Assembly (NCBI GenBank): GCA_913009765.1 | Contig: CAJVYT010000201.1 | Location: 1 to 7,654, forward strand | Reading direction: 5' to 3' | Origin: an uncultured candidate division Zixibacteria bacterium | GTDB lineage: Bacteria; Zixibacteria; MSB-5A5; GN15; FEB-12 | Length of the DNA stretch: 7,654 nucleotides | In this document: one piece after another, positions 359 through 7,654 of the stretch | Position numbering within the stretch: the first letter of the stretch is position 1 | Layout of the letters: every line of letters starts with the position of its first letter | Position numbers and translations under genes: made by a program | The notes under the pieces: model-generated | The model's input: only the letters and a program-made list of their open reading frames with translations | Database searches by the model: none | What the model was told of the DNA's origin: nothing

Positions 359-3300
359 TCAATTAGTTTTACGTCTTTTGCGTTGCTCATAAATTGTTTT
401 CTTAAAATTTATTTTATCTCCATCAAATACATATGCTGAACGCATTTCATGAATACCTAGTCCATTCATCAAGCCAAGAATTACCATCTTCTCCTGATAT
501 CCAAATAAAACTAAAGCTAATGAGTTAGATTGCAGATAATCCTTGATGTAGGACAGCCTCGCCAAAAGACCATCCCCATTATTATTAACAGCTACGATCT
601 GGATATCACCAGATGGATTTATCCAACCTGCCTGTCCATCCCATTTTAAATTACCATAGTTAATAATGTCAGGGCTTGGGACTAGTAAGGATGGAGCAGA
701 ATTATCTTGGCTGCAATCATAACCAAACTCAGCTCCCCTTAGTAAATTAATTGTAGTAATATGAGCATTTTGAGTTCCGGGTATTTCGCAATCTAAATAA
801 TTTTCTCCAATTTCAACTCGCTGCTCCCAAACCAAACTGTCAGGATATTCACCAAACAATACCTTATAATCATAAGGTTCGTATCTCGATAAATCAGGAG
901 CAAACCGACTTGACCTCAATTCTTTTTTAATCTCTTTAATTTCTGACACAGAAGCAGTTACAGTTTTATATAAAATAGCTATTCTTTTATATGGGCAATC
1001 AGAATCTTTATTGTCATCCAATTTAAATTCCAAAGGACAATAAAGAGAAAGATATAACCATTGCTCCCCTTGGTCATCCGTAACAATTATTGTATCTGAA
1101 ATGTTTGGAAAGTCTTTTTTCCACATCCAGTCCTCATTACTCAAGTTAGCAACAGCATTAAAATCATAACTCACAGGCTTCCACCATTCCATATTCTTTT
1201 TGGGTTTATTCGAATAAATCCTTAGATCTGTCGGGTCGATATCACGCAAATCAATGCCTTGAAACCTAGGATAAGAAGTTTCTTTTTCATGACCCCAAGA
1301 ATGTTTTGAAATAGGCAAATGATCAGCTAATATTCCTGCTAAGCGATGCAACAAAATCCAATAATATTTTTTCCCCAACCGCTCAGCCCAGACTGGCTTC
1401 GCACGACCACCTCCGTACTTACCTACTATATATCTATCATGGCGATGACATCTATTATCCTGACCCGGATATCCTAACTTTTCGACTTCTTTCAAAAACC
1501 AACGATGAACTTGAGCCCTTGTAATTCCAGCAGAATCAATGTCATATTCACGTAAAACACGGGGTTCCAACACATAATGAACAAAATCAGTACCAATGCC
1601 AGAATCATCAAGATTCATGTGTAGTTTAAAAGCGTCATTTTCCTTTAAGTGCGATACATCTTCTTCAGATGGAAAATCTATTGGCCATGGACTATTGTAT
1701 GGCGGTCTAAACTTGTCAGGGTCAACACTACCACCCAATATCTTGCTGTGATAAGCGATCTCCATAATTAATCTATACCAGTCACGTATTGATGCACTTA
1801 GTGGTACTTCATCGCTTAAATAAATTACATTGTATAAATATTCAGCAATGTCTTTAAGGATTTTATTATCTTCTAATCGTAAAAGTGCACCATATGCTGA
1901 TAAAGTTATCCTTTCCATAACAAAATCATCGTCAGTATGAATAAATCTGTCAATTATTTGTTTAATAATAATAGGCCTAGCTATAAACAGTTTTGTTAAT
2001 CCTTTAGTAGCCCGGTCACGAACTCTCCGGTCTGGAGCTGAACAGCACCAAGCAAGAATAACAGCCCATAATTCAGTTGTTTTGTGACTAAATGGTTTTA
2101 AGTCTGCTTTGAGAGACCATTCAATCAATCTCCATGCAGACGCTTTTTTCTCAAAATCCTCATGAAGCATACTAGACCAAAAAGTATCTCTTTCTGTCAT
2201 ATCCGTACGAACTAACATGCTATCAATAAATTCAGCATTCATAGGATGATCAGGAATGACAGCTAAACCTAATAGAGCATCCATCGCTGCAAAAAATGAA
2301 TCATATTTAGACAATCCTTCATAAACCAACTTTGTCGTCTTCATTGAAAAAGTCTTTGGATCACGCCACTGAAAACCAGCAAAAATAACAGGCAAAATTG
2401 TTTTGTAACGATCCAGATTTTCAACAATATCAGCTATTTCGACATCATATTTTTCCGGCAGAATAATTGAGCACGCTTCCAGTACCCCCCTATGCTCTTT
2501 AGCTGATTCTTCTGAAATAACTGAAAAAGCAAGTGGTCCATCAGTAAATACTGTTTTAAGATTATGAGTATCTATATCACTCAGCAATGAAAGAGAAACC
2601 AAAAAGTCAGCGACCCGGTCAAATGTAAATCGACAAAACCATTCTTTCGGACCGAGCGGGTTTGCTCTTTTTTCTACTAATGAGACAAGGCCTTCCTTTT
2701 CTAGCTGCCTAAATAATGATCGGCTGTAATCTTCAACTGCAAATATTTCTTCAACTATAGTCTTTGCTATATCCAGAGGAAGTAACCGATTATTGTCTGT
2801 AGCCATCTGTCCAGCCAGTGCTTCAACTGCCTGGTTAACTTTATTATCTCGGGGATCATATCGGCATACTTTTGCCGCATGTTTGTTCTTTTCTTCAATT
2901 AAAAGACGAAGCACAGCTGCGAACCCGAGGCTTCCCAAGGGTACAGAGTCAATACCTGAATCTTTTAGTCCCTGACAAACCAAGTGCAGAAATAAAGGAT
3001 TTGCAAATTCTCTTTGCAATAGAGGCGTTGCAGGTGGCTGTAATTCATAAAATTCGAAAAATTGTCTAATTGCGTCAAACTCACGTCCAATAAAACCATT
3101 ATGTTCAAATTCAGGCCACTCATTCCCAATATCTATTGATTCATCTATGTAAGTATCTCGGCACGATACACATAGTTTTATCCATGGGAAATGCTTGAGT
3201 TGCTGGCGTAATGTCGGTAGCCAAGATTGTTTCCATTTATGACGGTCTTCAGATTCGTTAATAGCATCAATATACACTAAAGCATGCTTGCCTGTTGCCT

Positions 3301-4603
3301 CAGAAGCGGCATTTATCATACTCCAGAGTTCATCTCGGCTGATATTTCCAGCTAATCCAAGTTTACTTGATATCGTTTCCCACGGCTCACCCTCAGTAAA
3401 GTCCTCTCCGAAAAAAACTATACCTATTTGCTGTCTTTTGCTTATGTGCAACGCATGATCAACTATAGCGTGAGTTTTTCCGACACCAGCTGGTCCACGT
3501 AAAAGCATAGTAGGACTACTCGGTAATATGGTCTCTTGACTGTCTAACCATACCGCAATCTGGTTCAAACACTTCAGTAAGTCTCTTGATATATCTAATT
3601 TTCCAGCTGGAAAATCACATATGTATTCAGCATGAAACTGCCTAAATCCCGGAGTATCAGATTTCGAACCATGTTTATCGCAAAACTCTTTGAAAAACTT
3701 CTTCTCTGCACTCGTTGCTTTACTAATAAGTTGCTCTATTGTTTCATTTACGCCTTTGTAATTAAAAACTTGTTCTGTATCAAGGATAGTTTCAATTTCA
3801 TTTCTGAGTTTATAAAGCCCTTCAGATATATTTTCCACATTGTCTCGAATATCCTCTGGTACTTCATCAGTGGTCTCCGTGCGGCGATTCCAACTTTCTG
3901 TTTCTTTACGCAGCATATCAAGAGAATTGTTTACCCTCTGCACCCAACGTACTGCGCATGCAAAAGATTCAAGAGCATCAAATGCAGGCACATCTACTGA
4001 TAATTCAGGAGAATAGCGCTTTCCGGCTTGTGAGACAGCTTCTTCCAGACGCTGTTGAAGCCACGCATTGGTCATTATCGAATCATCAAACCAATAGCGC
4101 CTTAAGCCGCCAAATGGATCAACATCGATTAGTTGGCTTCGCAGGAAACTCTCATGCCAAAATTCGATATCTAATATTGTGCCTTGAGAGGAAAGTTCTT
4201 CTGTTCTTTCCTTTTTCCATTTTTCAAGCTTTTCTGTCTGACTCTTACCCCTTCGGCCTCCTGACGTAGGCCCTGTCGGGTCAAGTGGAAAACAGAAAAT
4301 GTAGCGAGTCAACTCTGGATGATTATGAACTGCTTTTTGTAATGAGTCTGTCATCTGACGGAATTGAGAACTTCCTAAGTTGTTAAAGAACTTTGACTGC
4401 ACCCCCCACTTTGTGCCATCCGGCAATACCGATATAGCTTCGACACCGCCATCCCCCCCTGCCCCCCTGTAACGATGAAACTTGCTATTTTCAGGTAATT
4501 TTTTGCCGGGGTTTCGATGATAAATTTGACAACATAATTCTTCAAATGCTTCTCTTTTACCGCCTTGAAATGCTCTAATCTTCTGAAAATTAATTTCTGT
4601 CAT
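359..4603 (-). CDS. Avs4-like antiviral STAND NTPase with N-terminal Mrr-like nuclease
   Basis: This 1414-residue protein has the Avs layout. Residues about 1-170 form a PD-(D/E)xK nuclease of Mrr type: FEEL helix near 20-23, GAGGDGGVEA with D51, and WGVQSK with Q69 and K71. A helical linker (about 175-340) leads to a STAND NTPase with Walker A GPAGVGKT (370-377), Walker B LVYIDAINE with D446, a candidate sensor arginine in SCRDTY (R482), and NPLFLHL (535-541) typical of the winged-helix part. Residues about 690-950 are helical and include DRRVRDRATKGL (858-869); 1060-1100 carries ERLGKKYYWILLHRLAGILAD. In known Avs proteins the C-terminal half binds a conserved phage protein (portal for Avs4), triggering oligomerisation and nuclease activity in the cytoplasm; target and activity here are inferred. 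The start has a weak GAGAA six bases or so upstream. It lies 119 bases behind the 371-residue gene. Avs4 is the best match by domain type, but a related unnamed nuclease-STAND family is possible. Confidence 0.85.
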   Translation of the reverse strand: MTEINFQKIRAFQGGKREAFEELCCQIYHRNPGKKLPENSKFHRYRGAGGDGGVEAISVLPDGTKWGVQSKFFNNLGSSQFRQMTDSLQKAVHNHPELTRYIFCFPLDPTGPTSGGRRGKSQTEKLEKWKKERTEELSSQGTILDIEFWHESFLRSQLIDVDPFGGLRRYWFDDSIMTNAWLQQRLEEAVSQAGKRYSPELSVDVPAFDALESFACAVRWVQRVNNSLDMLRKETESWNRRTETTDEVPEDIRDNVENISEGLYKLRNEIETILDTEQVFNYKGVNETIEQLISKATSAEKKFFKEFCDKHGSKSDTPGFRQFHAEYICDFPAGKLDISRDLLKCLNQIAVWLDSQETILPSSPTMLLRGPAGVGKTHAIVDHALHISKRQQIGIVFFGEDFTEGEPWETISSKLGLAGNISRDELWSMINAASEATGKHALVYIDAINESEDRHKWKQSWLPTLRQQLKHFPWIKLCVSCRDTYIDESIDIGNEWPEFEHNGFIGREFDAIRQFFEFYELQPPATPLLQREFANPLFLHLVCQGLKDSGIDSVPLGSLGFAAVLRLLIEEKNKHAAKVCRYDPRDNKVNQAVEALAGQMATDNNRLLPLDIAKTIVEEIFAVEDYSRSLFRQLEKEGLVSLVEKRANPLGPKEWFCRFTFDRVADFLVSLSLLSDIDTHNLKTVFTDGPLAFSVISEESAKEHRGVLEACSIILPEKYDVEIADIVENLDRYKTILPVIFAGFQWRDPKTFSMKTTKLVYEGLSKYDSFFAAMDALLGLAVIPDHPMNAEFIDSMLVRTDMTERDTFWSSMLHEDFEKKASAWRLIEWSLKADLKPFSHKTTELWAVILAWCCSAPDRRVRDRATKGLTKLFIARPIIIKQIIDRFIHTDDDFVMERITLSAYGALLRLEDNKILKDIAEYLYNVIYLSDEVPLSASIRDWYRLIMEIAYHSKILGGSVDPDKFRPPYNSPWPIDFPSEEDVSHLKENDAFKLHMNLDDSGIGTDFVHYVLEPRVLREYDIDSAGITRAQVHRWFLKEVEKLGYPGQDNRCHRHDRYIVGKYGGGRAKPVWAERLGKKYYWILLHRLAGILADHLPISKHSWGHEKETSYPRFQGIDLRDIDPTDLRIYSNKPKKNMEWWKPVSYDFNAVANLSNEDWMWKKDFPNISDTIIVTDDQGEQWLYLSLYCPLEFKLDDNKDSDCPYKRIAILYKTVTASVSEIKEIKKELRSSRFAPDLSRYEPYDYKVLFGEYPDSLVWEQRVEIGENYLDCEIPGTQNAHITTINLLRGAEFGYDCSQDNSAPSLLVPSPDIINYGNLKWDGQAGWINPSGDIQIVAVNNNGDGLLARLSYIKDYLQSNSLALVLFGYQEKMVILGLMNGLGIHEMRSAYVFDGDKINFKKTIYEQRKRRKTN

Positions 4604-4635
4604 TATATTCTCGTTATTTAGTTTCTACTATTAAA

Positions 4636-4673
4636 TTTATTTGCCAGGTATATAAATATTACTCGCAAATAAA
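4636..4673. repeat. 9-bp inverted repeat in the gap between the two defence genes
   Basis: TTTATTTGC (4636-4644) and GCAAATAAA (4665-4673) are perfectly complementary across 20 A/T-rich bases. The repeat sits in the 119-base gap just upstream of the STAND gene. It could form an mRNA stem limiting read-through or shielding translation, or be an operator. The sequence is clear; the function is not. Confidence 0.5.
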
Positions 4674-4717
4674 GAGGTACTATGTAACTTATTATGACCA
4701 ATGTTTGAAATATAATA

Positions 4718-4722
4718 CTCCT
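4718..4722 (-). promoter_or_regulatory. Shine-Dalgarno-like AGGAG with no standard start codon behind it
   Basis: A full AGGAG follows directly on the TAA stop of the 371-residue gene on the minus strand. No ATG, GTG or TTG occurs at the usual 5-9 base distance; the nearest candidate is a TTG 16 bases on. It may be fortuitous or a remnant of an earlier gene junction. Confidence 0.3.
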
Positions 4723-5838
4723 TTAAATATCCATGTTATCAAAAGCATCCTGCAAACTGCATATATGCTCTAATTCAGACTTAAACTCATCCAATGAATT
4801 CATTTTTCTTTTTAATTTGGAAACCGTTTTATTATCAATATGGATTGGAAGTCCTGATTCAGCATATATCATGCCGAATTTTGTCTCATCACGTTTACGC
4901 AACATTGCTTCAAACCGGCCAAAAATCTCAAATATTTTCTTAGCCTGTTCTTCACCTATTGATGGATGCTGTTTAGCATGAGGCAGAAAATGCTTTTTAT
5001 AAGTTGACGGAACTAATCCAAAATAAGGAATGTGGAAAAAGAATTCAGGTGATGAATGAACCGTCAAGTTTCTATATTCGGTTCGGATAAAAACTATGTC
5101 AGAAAAAAGTCTATTTAAATCATTGCTTGAACCTACTGGAATTAACCATTTAAGCCTTTCAGACCAATTCATACCTTTGAAGTCAGCATAAGTTAAATCT
5201 TTCCGGTCACTTAGAGAAAAGCAGGCATCCATGATAACTTCAATCATTGCTAAATAAAATACTACAGCAGCTATTGTATTTGCTTCTATCCTCCTTAGCT
5301 TCTGGTACTGCAAGTTAAGCTCGCTGGACAAGCTGTGAATTGCTGTATCTATATCGCCCTTTGCTCCTGTATTCCCGTGGGAAACTTTTTGTTTTTTAAC
5401 TGACGATTTCTCTGAATTCTCCCTGAAGAAGTCATATAAGCCACGTAGCTTATGATATTGATTTTGCAGTGAAAACTCTCCACTCTCATATTTTTTCTTT
5501 GCAGTTAATGCTAAGTCGCGATCCATAATTGCAGCAGCGGCTTTTATTTTCTTAATTAATTCTTCAGCTTCCTTTGTATGATTCGGGGGACCTTCTAAAT
5601 TCCAAGCATATCTTTTCCAATCCCATAATAACCATATCCGCCCCTTATATTCTATCGGCAATTCCCAGTCAGATTTATCTCCTCCTTCGGGGAGCATTGC
5701 TTTAAGAAATACTGTAAAAACCAATCTAATTAGATAACTTGGGGGCTCATCCATTCGATCATACTTTACCAATGATACTTGGTTAGGCCATTTTTCAGAA
5801 TATTTTATGCCTGTAAGGGCCTCTAGTATTTTTTTCAT
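4723..5838 (-). CDS. Putative HEPN-domain protein, possible RNase, next to the Avs4-like gene
   Basis: I do not recognise a named family for this 371-residue protein. The strongest clue is RNLTVH at 256-261 in IRTEYRNLTVHSS: an R-x4-H motif with Asn right after the Arg, the usual form of the HEPN RNase active site (R-x4-6-H). It lies in a helical stretch, and an upstream helix (about 183-206, AVVFYLAMIEVIMDAC) carries E200, as HEPN folds often have an acidic residue in the first helix. Residues 1-85 are a separate Trp-rich, partly hydrophobic segment (YLIRLVFTVFL near 35-45); 90-150 are charged and probably coiled coil; the C-terminus (335-371) is helical. No signal peptide or clear transmembrane segment is seen. 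The start is supported only by frame and composition, since no good ribosome site precedes ATG 5838. It is first of a same-strand pair with the STAND nuclease gene, so a role as second effector, antitoxin-like partner or regulator is inferred. RNase activity is unproven. Confidence 0.6.
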   Translation of the reverse strand: MKKILEALTGIKYSEKWPNQVSLVKYDRMDEPPSYLIRLVFTVFLKAMLPEGGDKSDWELPIEYKGRIWLLWDWKRYAWNLEGPPNHTKEAEELIKKIKAAAAIMDRDLALTAKKKYESGEFSLQNQYHKLRGLYDFFRENSEKSSVKKQKVSHGNTGAKGDIDTAIHSLSSELNLQYQKLRRIEANTIAAVVFYLAMIEVIMDACFSLSDRKDLTYADFKGMNWSERLKWLIPVGSSNDLNRLFSDIVFIRTEYRNLTVHSSPEFFFHIPYFGLVPSTYKKHFLPHAKQHPSIGEEQAKKIFEIFGRFEAMLRKRDETKFGMIYAESGLPIHIDNKTVSKLKRKMNSLDEFKSELEHICSLQDAFDNMDI

Positions 5839-6124: not shown

Positions 6125-6391
6125 ACAATCACACTCCATTGGGCGGGAATTAATCAATCCAGGCAGTCACGAGCAAGCCTGCGGATTATCAGGTTGCTGG
6201 CTTTATCCAATGAGTCGAGTAAGAGCAACAGCCTCGACTTCCTGATAAACGCAAAGGATTGAGAAGTGAAAATCGTCTCAAAGCGCTCATTGAGGCGTAT
6301 TTGGTCGTGCCAAACCCGTTTCTGTTTGGTCGAAAGCAAGAGCTGTAGAGACCCTGCCTGACTATTGGGAGGGAAAATGGAGTGTGATTGT
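6125..6391. mobile_element. 267-base MITE-like element with perfect 16-bp terminal inverted repeats
   Basis: ACAATCACACTCCATT (6125-6140) and its exact complement AATGGAGTGTGATTGT (6376-6391) bound a 267-base segment. Inside are further stems: TTATCAGG (6186-6193) with CCTGATAA (6241-6248), AGTCGAG (6213-6219) with CTCGACT (6233-6239), CAATGAG (6208-6214) with CTCATTG (6286-6292), and GTTGCT (6193-6198) with AGCAAC (6224-6229). A minus-strand open frame of 87 codons (6154-6417) overlaps it, but it has no recognisable domain or ribosome site and is probably chance. The size, terminal repeats and lack of a transposase fit a miniature non-autonomous transposon. No target-site duplication is visible at the repeat ends, so a long structured RNA closed by the 16-bp helix is an alternative. 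Confidence 0.5.
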
Positions 6392-6443: not shown

Positions 6444-7391
6444 TCACCAAATCTTCCATTTATGCACGTCACTGCCTAACTTTTTTCCCATTATCCGTTC
6501 GAGCTCCAATCCGGCTAAGGCAGCTCCTGCCGGTTTTACGGCAAAAACCAGCTTGTATGGCGGGTAATAATAAACACCTAAAGCTAATTCTTGATAAGGA
6601 CTCACTGTCACGTTTTCTGAATCTTCGCCGACAAACGAGTCCATTTCTGACGACAGTACGCTTTGATGGTCCCTGATCACAATGACGCCATTAAATGCCC
6701 TGACTGATACCCCGTGCTCTTCCGTAATATCATGAAGCCTGGAGAGCGTAATTGAACCAGGACTTTCAAAGCATTCATCAACTATTTCTGAGCTGACCAT
6801 AAGGAGTTCTTTAAGTCGTACATTCAGATAGTGAGCAGTTATGACTTTAGGGATTCGTTCCATAGAGGACTCAGGCAAACTTGCAGAAACGTTCATTTCA
6901 TTGTCCGTAAAATTAACGTGAACGTCAATTTTACTTTCCAGGGCATCAAATTCCATATCCTCAAAGAAGCGGGTTTTCTTTAAGAGATTCGTAAACCGGT
7001 CATGTATTCCAAGTGCTATCTGATTGCGTACGGTCTCAAAAGCAGGAACGATATTTTTGTCCTCATTCAGATAAACGGTACGACCGTCTTTTTGTATCTG
7101 ATCATCAAGAAAGTAGTAGCCCCCCTGCTGACCAATGGTAACGAGAGCTGACAACGTGGCCGCTTTCAGTAGAACATGCAATTGTTCATCCGGCCCGCTC
7201 ACGTCCTTATGGTAAGTAACTTCATCCCGGTTTTTAACGTTAAACTTAACTGAGTTTTGTCCGTCAAAATCAATGGTGTAGTGCAGTTTTTTACCGGTCT
7301 GGGTTAAGAGGTCTAACTGCATGGGTGAACCATCAGGAGTAAATTCGTACGAAAGGACTAATTCTTTTTGGTCCCCGGCCCGGGTTAGCAC
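6444..7391 (-). CDS. Uncharacterised protein, 5' end apparently removed by an IS630 insertion
   Basis: The frame opens at GTG 7391 (first canonical start) and runs 315 codons to a TGA. I do not recognise the family. The visible N-terminal 90 residues alternate beta-strand patterns (YEFTPDG, LHYTIDFDG, VKFNV); a mixed alpha/beta region follows, and the last 80 residues are again strand-rich, ending MGKKLG...KWKIW. No catalytic motif, P-loop or convincing membrane segment is seen. The GTG is probably not the original start: the frame upstream (7392-7481) still reads as protein, including ELIGIWHADDEKKVTYSR and FDGEYAV, until it meets the IS end. No ribosome site precedes the GTG. The original protein probably had at least 30 more residues and perhaps an export signal. 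Base composition is visibly less A/T-rich than the defence genes, so it probably belongs to a different, older segment. Likely a non-functional or N-terminally shortened gene. Confidence 0.6.
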   Translation of the reverse strand: MLTRAGDQKELVLSYEFTPDGSPMQLDLLTQTGKKLHYTIDFDGQNSVKFNVKNRDEVTYHKDVSGPDEQLHVLLKAATLSALVTIGQQGGYYFLDDQIQKDGRTVYLNEDKNIVPAFETVRNQIALGIHDRFTNLLKKTRFFEDMEFDALESKIDVHVNFTDNEMNVSASLPESSMERIPKVITAHYLNVRLKELLMVSSEIVDECFESPGSITLSRLHDITEEHGVSVRAFNGVIVIRDHQSVLSSEMDSFVGEDSENVTVSPYQELALGVYYYPPYKLVFAVKPAGAALAGLELERIMGKKLGSDVHKWKIW

Positions 7392-7481
7392 TGCGTATTC
7401 ACCGTCAAAAACAATGCGGGAATACGTGACTTTTTTCTCATCATCTGCATGCCATATGCCAATCAGCTCAGGAGTAGTATT
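7392..7481 (-). pseudogene. In-frame 5' remnant of the 6444-7391 gene
   Basis: Thirty sense codons continue the downstream frame without a stop and give ELIGIWHADDEKKVTYSR followed by IVFDGEYAV. A Gly-x-Trp followed by strand-like residues and DGEY resembles the first strands of small beta-barrel domains. There is no ATG, GTG or TTG in this stretch. The next in-frame stop upstream is the transposase TAA at 7503-7505, so the natural start has been lost. Confidence 0.6.
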
Positions 7482-7482
7482 A

Positions 7483-7654
7483 CTGACTAGTGCACTGTGA
7501 CATTAGTTTCTGATAGTTTTGTAATGTCTCTTAAGTTTTTCACGGGCTTTGCTCTTTGTAAACTGCCAGGAAATGGTCGCCTTCCGGCGATCTCGTTGAC
7601 CGGCCCAAACATATACTTCTTTAGAAAAGGTTTCTATATCACCTATACGGCGGT
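7483..7654 (-). mobile_element. IS630-family insertion sequence, 3' end only (runs off window)
   Basis: The segment holds the transposase C-terminus and the presumed element end. Reading inward on the plus strand, the end would begin CTGACTAGTGCACTGTGAC at 7483, directly after a TA at 7481-7482; IS630 elements insert at and duplicate TA. The exact boundary is inferred, because the other terminal repeat is outside the window. The end contains the palindrome AGTGCACT (7489-7496). Confidence 0.6.
7503..7654 (-). CDS. IS630-family transposase, C-terminal fragment (starts beyond window edge)
   Basis: Fifty codons read in from the right edge to TAA at 7503-7505. The peptide ends with VYVWAGQRDRRKATISWQFTK and then SKAREKLKRHYKTIRN, the conserved tail of IS630/Tc1-type DDE transposases (a Trp and an R-x-R/N pair, then A-T-I-x-W-x-F-T and A-R-x-K-L). 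This tail follows the last catalytic acidic residue, so the DDE triad lies off the window. The enzyme cuts the element's terminal repeats and inserts it at TA dinucleotides. The frame is intact as far as visible. Its stop codon is in the same frame as the downstream truncated gene, and the two are separated by only 20-odd bases of element end. Confidence 0.82.
   Translation of the reverse strand, partial: RRIGDIETFSKEVYVWAGQRDRRKATISWQFTKSKAREKLKRHYKTIRN

Follow-up and report, generated by a model that had tools for sequence, protein, structure and literature searches.

We analysed a 7,654-nucleotide stretch of DNA from an uncultured candidate division Zixibacteria bacterium (contig CAJVYT010000201.1), hereafter the window, which carries two adjacent genes on the minus strand, one encoding a large predicted Avs2-type STAND NTPase and the other a smaller protein that looks like an HEPN endoribonuclease. 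The longest of the four contigs holding either protein is 7654 bases long, and the window is therefore likely to represent an entire short metagenomic contig. In agreement with the original prediction, a model's reading of the sequence that preceded this analysis, the two genes lie on the same strand 119 bases apart. Both frames are open and begin with ATG; the HEPN gene is the upstream one in transcription order. The main features are as follows, with all coordinates and strands given as window positions.

359-4603, minus strand: Avs2-type STAND NTPase of 1414 residues (1414 codons, ATG)
4034-4603, minus strand: N-terminal nuclease part of the Avs2-type gene, residues 1-190, with D51, E55 and Q69-x-K71
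4604-4722, minus strand: gap of 119 bases between the two genes, overlapped by one promoter-like site
4723-5838, minus strand: putative HEPN endoribonuclease of an unnamed family, 371 residues (371 codons, ATG)

The large protein was matched by six PADLOC Avs2 models (2.1e-296 to 1.8e-128), the best among all PADLOC models, with matches extending over residues 2-1015 (PDLC02164, 2.1e-296) and 3-1409 (PDLC02162) of its 1414 residues. Its match to the NCBIfam Avs2 model NF041813 (3.9e-203, 677.7 bits) fell under the curated cut-off of 1000, and we therefore refer to it as an Avs2-type relative rather than as an NCBI equivalog. The sole solved relative by sequence was an Avs2 (PDB 9o4e), aligned over residues 178-993 and 1060-1224. 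Homologues numbered 843 at E 0.001 or better, the window protein included, with the nearest at 60% identity among the best 120 of the 843, and no relative was found in viral contigs. The protein had previously been called Avs4-like, a name taken from its effector, but the PADLOC Avs4 model matched only residues 1-173 (2.4e-5, 19.8 bits) and NCBIfam Avs4 gave 16.7 of 1500 bits, and we rejected that assignment. Given that the Avs2 models span most of the protein and Avs4 only its N-terminus, the protein belongs, by homology, to the Avs2 type and carries an N-terminal effector resembling that of Avs4.

The predicted architecture comprises an Mrr-like PD-(D/E)xK nuclease (about residues 1-177), a STAND NTPase and a C-terminal sensor region, and the combination of nuclease and STAND NTPase proposed earlier is borne out by conservation: the nuclease motif GGDGG-VE ... 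Q-x-K has D51, E55, Q69 and K71 in common across all 27 aligned sequences (the window protein included), and K376 of the P-loop GPAGVGKTH (residues 370-378) was invariant in the alignment. The link to Mrr by sequence was weak: against one Mrr protein hhalign gave a probability of only 9.8, albeit with the GDGG motifs in register, and a search of Pfam gave no Mrr match for the large protein.

The small protein appears to contain an N-terminal alpha/beta domain (about residues 1-107) followed by a helical HEPN-like domain (about residues 120-315) with the motif R256-N-L-T-V-H261 (R256-N-x3-H261). In an alignment of 18 members (A5), from which the partial or interrupted copies P0132 (lacking the motif region), L046 and L053 were left out, seven columns were invariant in all 18 rows (R256, N257, H261, W225, G274, P277 and N368) and E200 was kept in 17. 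Because R256, N257 and H261 remain invariant at a median pairwise identity of 22%, the motif is more than chance; in a separate 12-row alignment, H261 was present in 11, the exception being the truncated P0132. The original prediction of an HEPN protein with an RNLTVH motif is thus upheld mainly by this invariance, with fold comparison as supportive evidence only, and its description of the protein as unfamiliar also stands, as no meaningful match and no family name were found in Pfam, PADLOC, NCBIfam or PHROGs. It had also suggested profile searches against HEPN and DUF families, which yielded weak HEPN rows for single members (Csx1_HEPN 0.0031, HEPN_RiboL-PSP 0.02 and HEPN_Swt1 0.067, each for one of the 18 members, standing among twelve weak rows) and none for the window protein itself. 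Taken at the level of sequence, the small protein is a putative HEPN endoribonuclease of a family unnamed in these four libraries, which may overlap the HEPN genes counted in PMC12839542.

Structural comparison gave limited further guidance. A Foldseek search of the first model of the small protein against the PDB returned nothing at E 0.001, and a PDB sequence-profile search with the HEPN alignment returned only glutathione transferase rows (E 0.2), which we took as chance. The best fold match of the predicted model was the HEPN domain of AbiA (8oz7), whose R-x6-H motif is dispensable (PMC11077055), and this would suit a catalytically inactive HEPN domain that serves in dimerisation or RNA binding, as in AbiA. 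Such an explanation is very unlikely in our judgement, because all 18 divergent members retain R256, N257 and H261, a constancy difficult to account for if the domain is not catalytic.

The predicted model also covers, at low quality, the two domains of 6y2p, and an RnlA/LsoA-type toxin, whose antitoxin has been lost, fused or gone unrecognised, could account for a two-domain protein with this motif. We regard this as quite unlikely: profile similarity to Escherichia coli RnlA was lacking (hhalign probability 0.2), leading us to reject homology to RnlA by sequence, and no partner was common to the family places described below. The neighbours in the window are the Avs2-type gene and short upstream frames, of which the 87-codon one had no match; none of these was tested as RnlB.

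To define the distribution of the small-protein family, we searched 5.8 billion proteins with the single sequence, which gave one relative, and with a two-sequence profile, which gave ten more (P0131 and P0132 being partial), for a total of 12 proteins including that of the window; the 11 closer relatives were 35-41% identical. Genome searches added nine more distant family places in eight genomes; seven of them entered A5, and these seven are 17-23% identical. These searches covered 1,885 distinct genomes (the tool count of 1894 includes nine centres twice). With alignment A3 (E 0.01 or 0.001), the family was found in 0/22 genomes with Avs2-related loci, 1/297 and 2/398 (three places); with alignment A4 (E 1e-4), it was found in 2/198, 0/194, 1/201, 2/199, 0/199, 0/135 and 0/51, the empty phyla sets (0/194, 0/199, 0/135 and 0/51) being negatives without a positive control. 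No relative of the window HEPN protein was found in viral contigs, plasmids or phages, and none of P0130 in plasmids.

The original prediction had proposed that the two genes form an undescribed two-component system, and we considered a lineage-specific version in which the Avs2-type protein senses phage, cuts DNA and also switches on, or restrains, the adjacent HEPN ribonuclease. The shared strand, the 119-base spacing and the two open frames fit such a unit, and DUF499 systems that carry a fused HEPN offer a precedent for linking a DNA-cutting to an RNA-cutting effector (PMC12839542). Against it, at least 35 Avs2-related loci, some of them partial or remote matches, were recovered when genome contigs were scanned with the Avs2 alignment, and the HEPN family was present in the flanks of 0/35 among the matches listed, where L031 and L032 seem to be one locus from two assemblies and L007, L024 and L030 have less than 0.8 kb upstream. 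The best flank scores were E 2.1 with the two-sequence profile and E 0.18 with a 14-sequence profile, the latter about 5 kb downstream at L006. Conversely, DNA around the family places held an Avs2-profile match at 0/9, two of these lying on short contigs (L048, 4654 bases; L049, 3092 bases); the prediction's own check, whether homologues sit directly upstream of an Avs gene, thus came out at none of the nine places, all of them distant members. As far as these loci allow a test, the result that the prediction had named as its refutation, homologues mostly without Avs neighbours, was therefore obtained. In the length of the longest contig, none of the 11 closer HEPN proteins agreed with any of the best 120 of the 843 Avs2 homologues, a weak test that argues weakly against regular pairing. 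No Avs-HEPN pair was described in the available parts of the open-licence literature, including PMC10952713, PMC11811056, PMC9122126 and PMC7699616.

We therefore rejected a conserved Avs2-HEPN pair as far as the loci allowed a test, and the two-component reading, which is not supported among the examined loci, seems improbable to us; the closest HEPN subfamily stays outside this conclusion. As the examined relatives of each gene occur without the other, the window points to two neighbouring defence genes rather than to a new two-part machine. Separately, at one of the Avs2-related loci, in Prauserella alba (L025:426-7816), two large same-strand frames of 1108 and 1355 codons lie upstream of the Avs2 relative.

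The neighbours of the distant family members were varied. An HNH gene lay 83 bases upstream of the member at L043, on the same strand; at L052:1070-11086, the member was preceded by an Old-like TOPRIM ATPase gene and followed by Hma-like DUF499 and DUF1156 methylase genes, all on the minus strand; and at L053 a truncated copy had PDC-S11, a PADLOC candidate, on one side and an Mrr gene on the other. A RES-domain gene was found 66 bases upstream of the member at L047, a Fic gene, on the opposite strand, alongside an interrupted copy at L044, and a weak PD-Lambda-5_A match (E 4.4e-5) upstream at L045, while L046 (interrupted), L048 and L049 had no recognised neighbour, as judged from translations only. 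The neighbour scans covered selected genes (10, then 8 plus one family member) without a random-gene background, and within that sample the changing neighbours fit a defence-island gene. The stretch L043:8383-10667 may form an HNH-HEPN unit of its own. We also considered that the family is a mobile plug-in RNase functionally coupled to whichever DNA-targeting system adjoins it (Avs2 in the window; HNH, Mrr or Hma-like elsewhere), providing an RNA-level second response when the first fails, which we hold to be unlikely.

In the window itself, promoter-like sites around the gap numbered 7 against a shuffle mean of 6.7, with no excess, and the site overlapping the gap (4739-4712) was not above chance. 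Upstream of the HEPN gene, from 176 bases on, we found same-strand frames (at least 30 codons) of 31, 68 and 87 codons and then a 315-codon frame; the 87-codon frame had no family match in library scans. The 315-codon frame belongs to an open stretch of 352 codons at 6444-7502 on the minus strand (315 from the first GTG), without a match in Pfam, PHROGs or plasmids. Also upstream of the HEPN gene, at 6125-6391, perfect 16-base inverted repeats surround 235 bases and resemble a small non-autonomous transposable element; the element had no plasmid match, and its arm at 6125-6140 was matched exactly in 11 stretches of viral contigs, just once in each, which is uninformative. Downstream of the Avs2-type gene, a perfect 17-base palindrome with a 5-base loop (139-177) is possibly a terminator, and a minus-strand frame (3-125) runs off the left window end. 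Its residues, ARRDPDFQFTSLAHLL, resemble the start of group II intron reverse transcriptases; its best plasmid match was an annotated reverse transcriptase (E 0.1, 50% over 36 residues), and library scans gave no family match. An Rfam scan revealed no intron RNA, its six rows every one under the gathering score.

Taking these observations together, we favour two separate defence genes side by side, an Avs2-type sensor acting alone and a stand-alone HEPN ribonuclease, as the likely explanation, with the pair probably lying in a defence island. This rests on the homologies, the motif conservation and the lack of conserved pairing in the examined loci. Two points weigh against it: the nine places are those of distant members, with the closer 11 proteins outside the neighbourhood comparison, and the dispensable motif of AbiA cautions against over-reading R256-N-x3-H261.

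The trigger expected of an Avs2 is a phage protein, for example the large subunit of terminase. By analogy with its family, the C-terminal part of the Avs2-type protein would bind a conserved phage protein, its STAND core would oligomerise, and its Mrr-like N-terminal nuclease would then cut DNA, so that infection is stopped. This course would agree with reports that recognition of terminase, portal or some other phage protein leads Avs1-Avs4 to cut both the phage and the host genome through their nuclease effectors (PMC12931631) and that plasmid-borne avs2 restored the response to portal protein in a deletion strain of Alcaligenes faecalis (PMC13141931). In the HEPN protein, the alpha/beta domain may sense a trigger or bind RNA, and the HEPN domain may dimerise and cut RNA through R256 and H261, causing growth shutdown, which would make the protein a single-gene abortive or back-up effector. 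Stand-alone HEPN genes found next to BREX and DUF499 systems are described as encoding back-up effectors (PMC12839542), and in a one-protein CBS-HEPN system, a change in CBS or changes in the HEPN catalytic residues each abolish defence (PMC13092281). We infer the nuclease activities, trigger, dimerisation and outcome for both proteins.

The analysis thus corrects a false lead, in that a conserved two-component Avs system was not found for the pair, and contributes a set of probable HEPN ribonucleases, a family that is unnamed in four libraries and recurs beside varied defence genes, which makes it well suited to being tested as a single gene against phage. Were coupling with neighbours to be shown, back-up RNA effectors beside DNA-cutting sensors would become directly testable.

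Compared with known systems, the large protein shares with Avs2 (PDLC02164/02162, NF041813 and 9o4e) a homologous STAND core and homology over some of the C-terminal region, whereas its residues 1-177 are unaligned to 9o4e and it reaches 678 of 1000 bits with NF041813. With Avs4, by contrast, it shares a weak match over the N-terminal nuclease (residues 1-173), while its STAND and sensor parts have no reported Avs4 match. The small protein resembles RnlA/LsoA in placing an HEPN-like domain after another domain, in its R-x4-H motif and in the low-quality span of 6y2p by its model, but differs in lacking profile similarity to RnlA and in having no RnlB recognised alongside, no search having been aimed at RnlB. 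It differs from AbiA (8oz7) in bearing an N-terminal alpha/beta domain where AbiA has a polymerase, and neither the AbiA HEPN domain nor the HEPN proteins 2hsb and 8xdj gave a match in the PDB sequence search with the window family. Finally, as with the stand-alone HEPN genes that back up BREX and DUF499 (Hma) systems, the HEPN gene adjoins a DNA-targeting system, and the relative at L052 lies by Hma-like genes, whereas the neighbour in the window is an Avs2-type gene.
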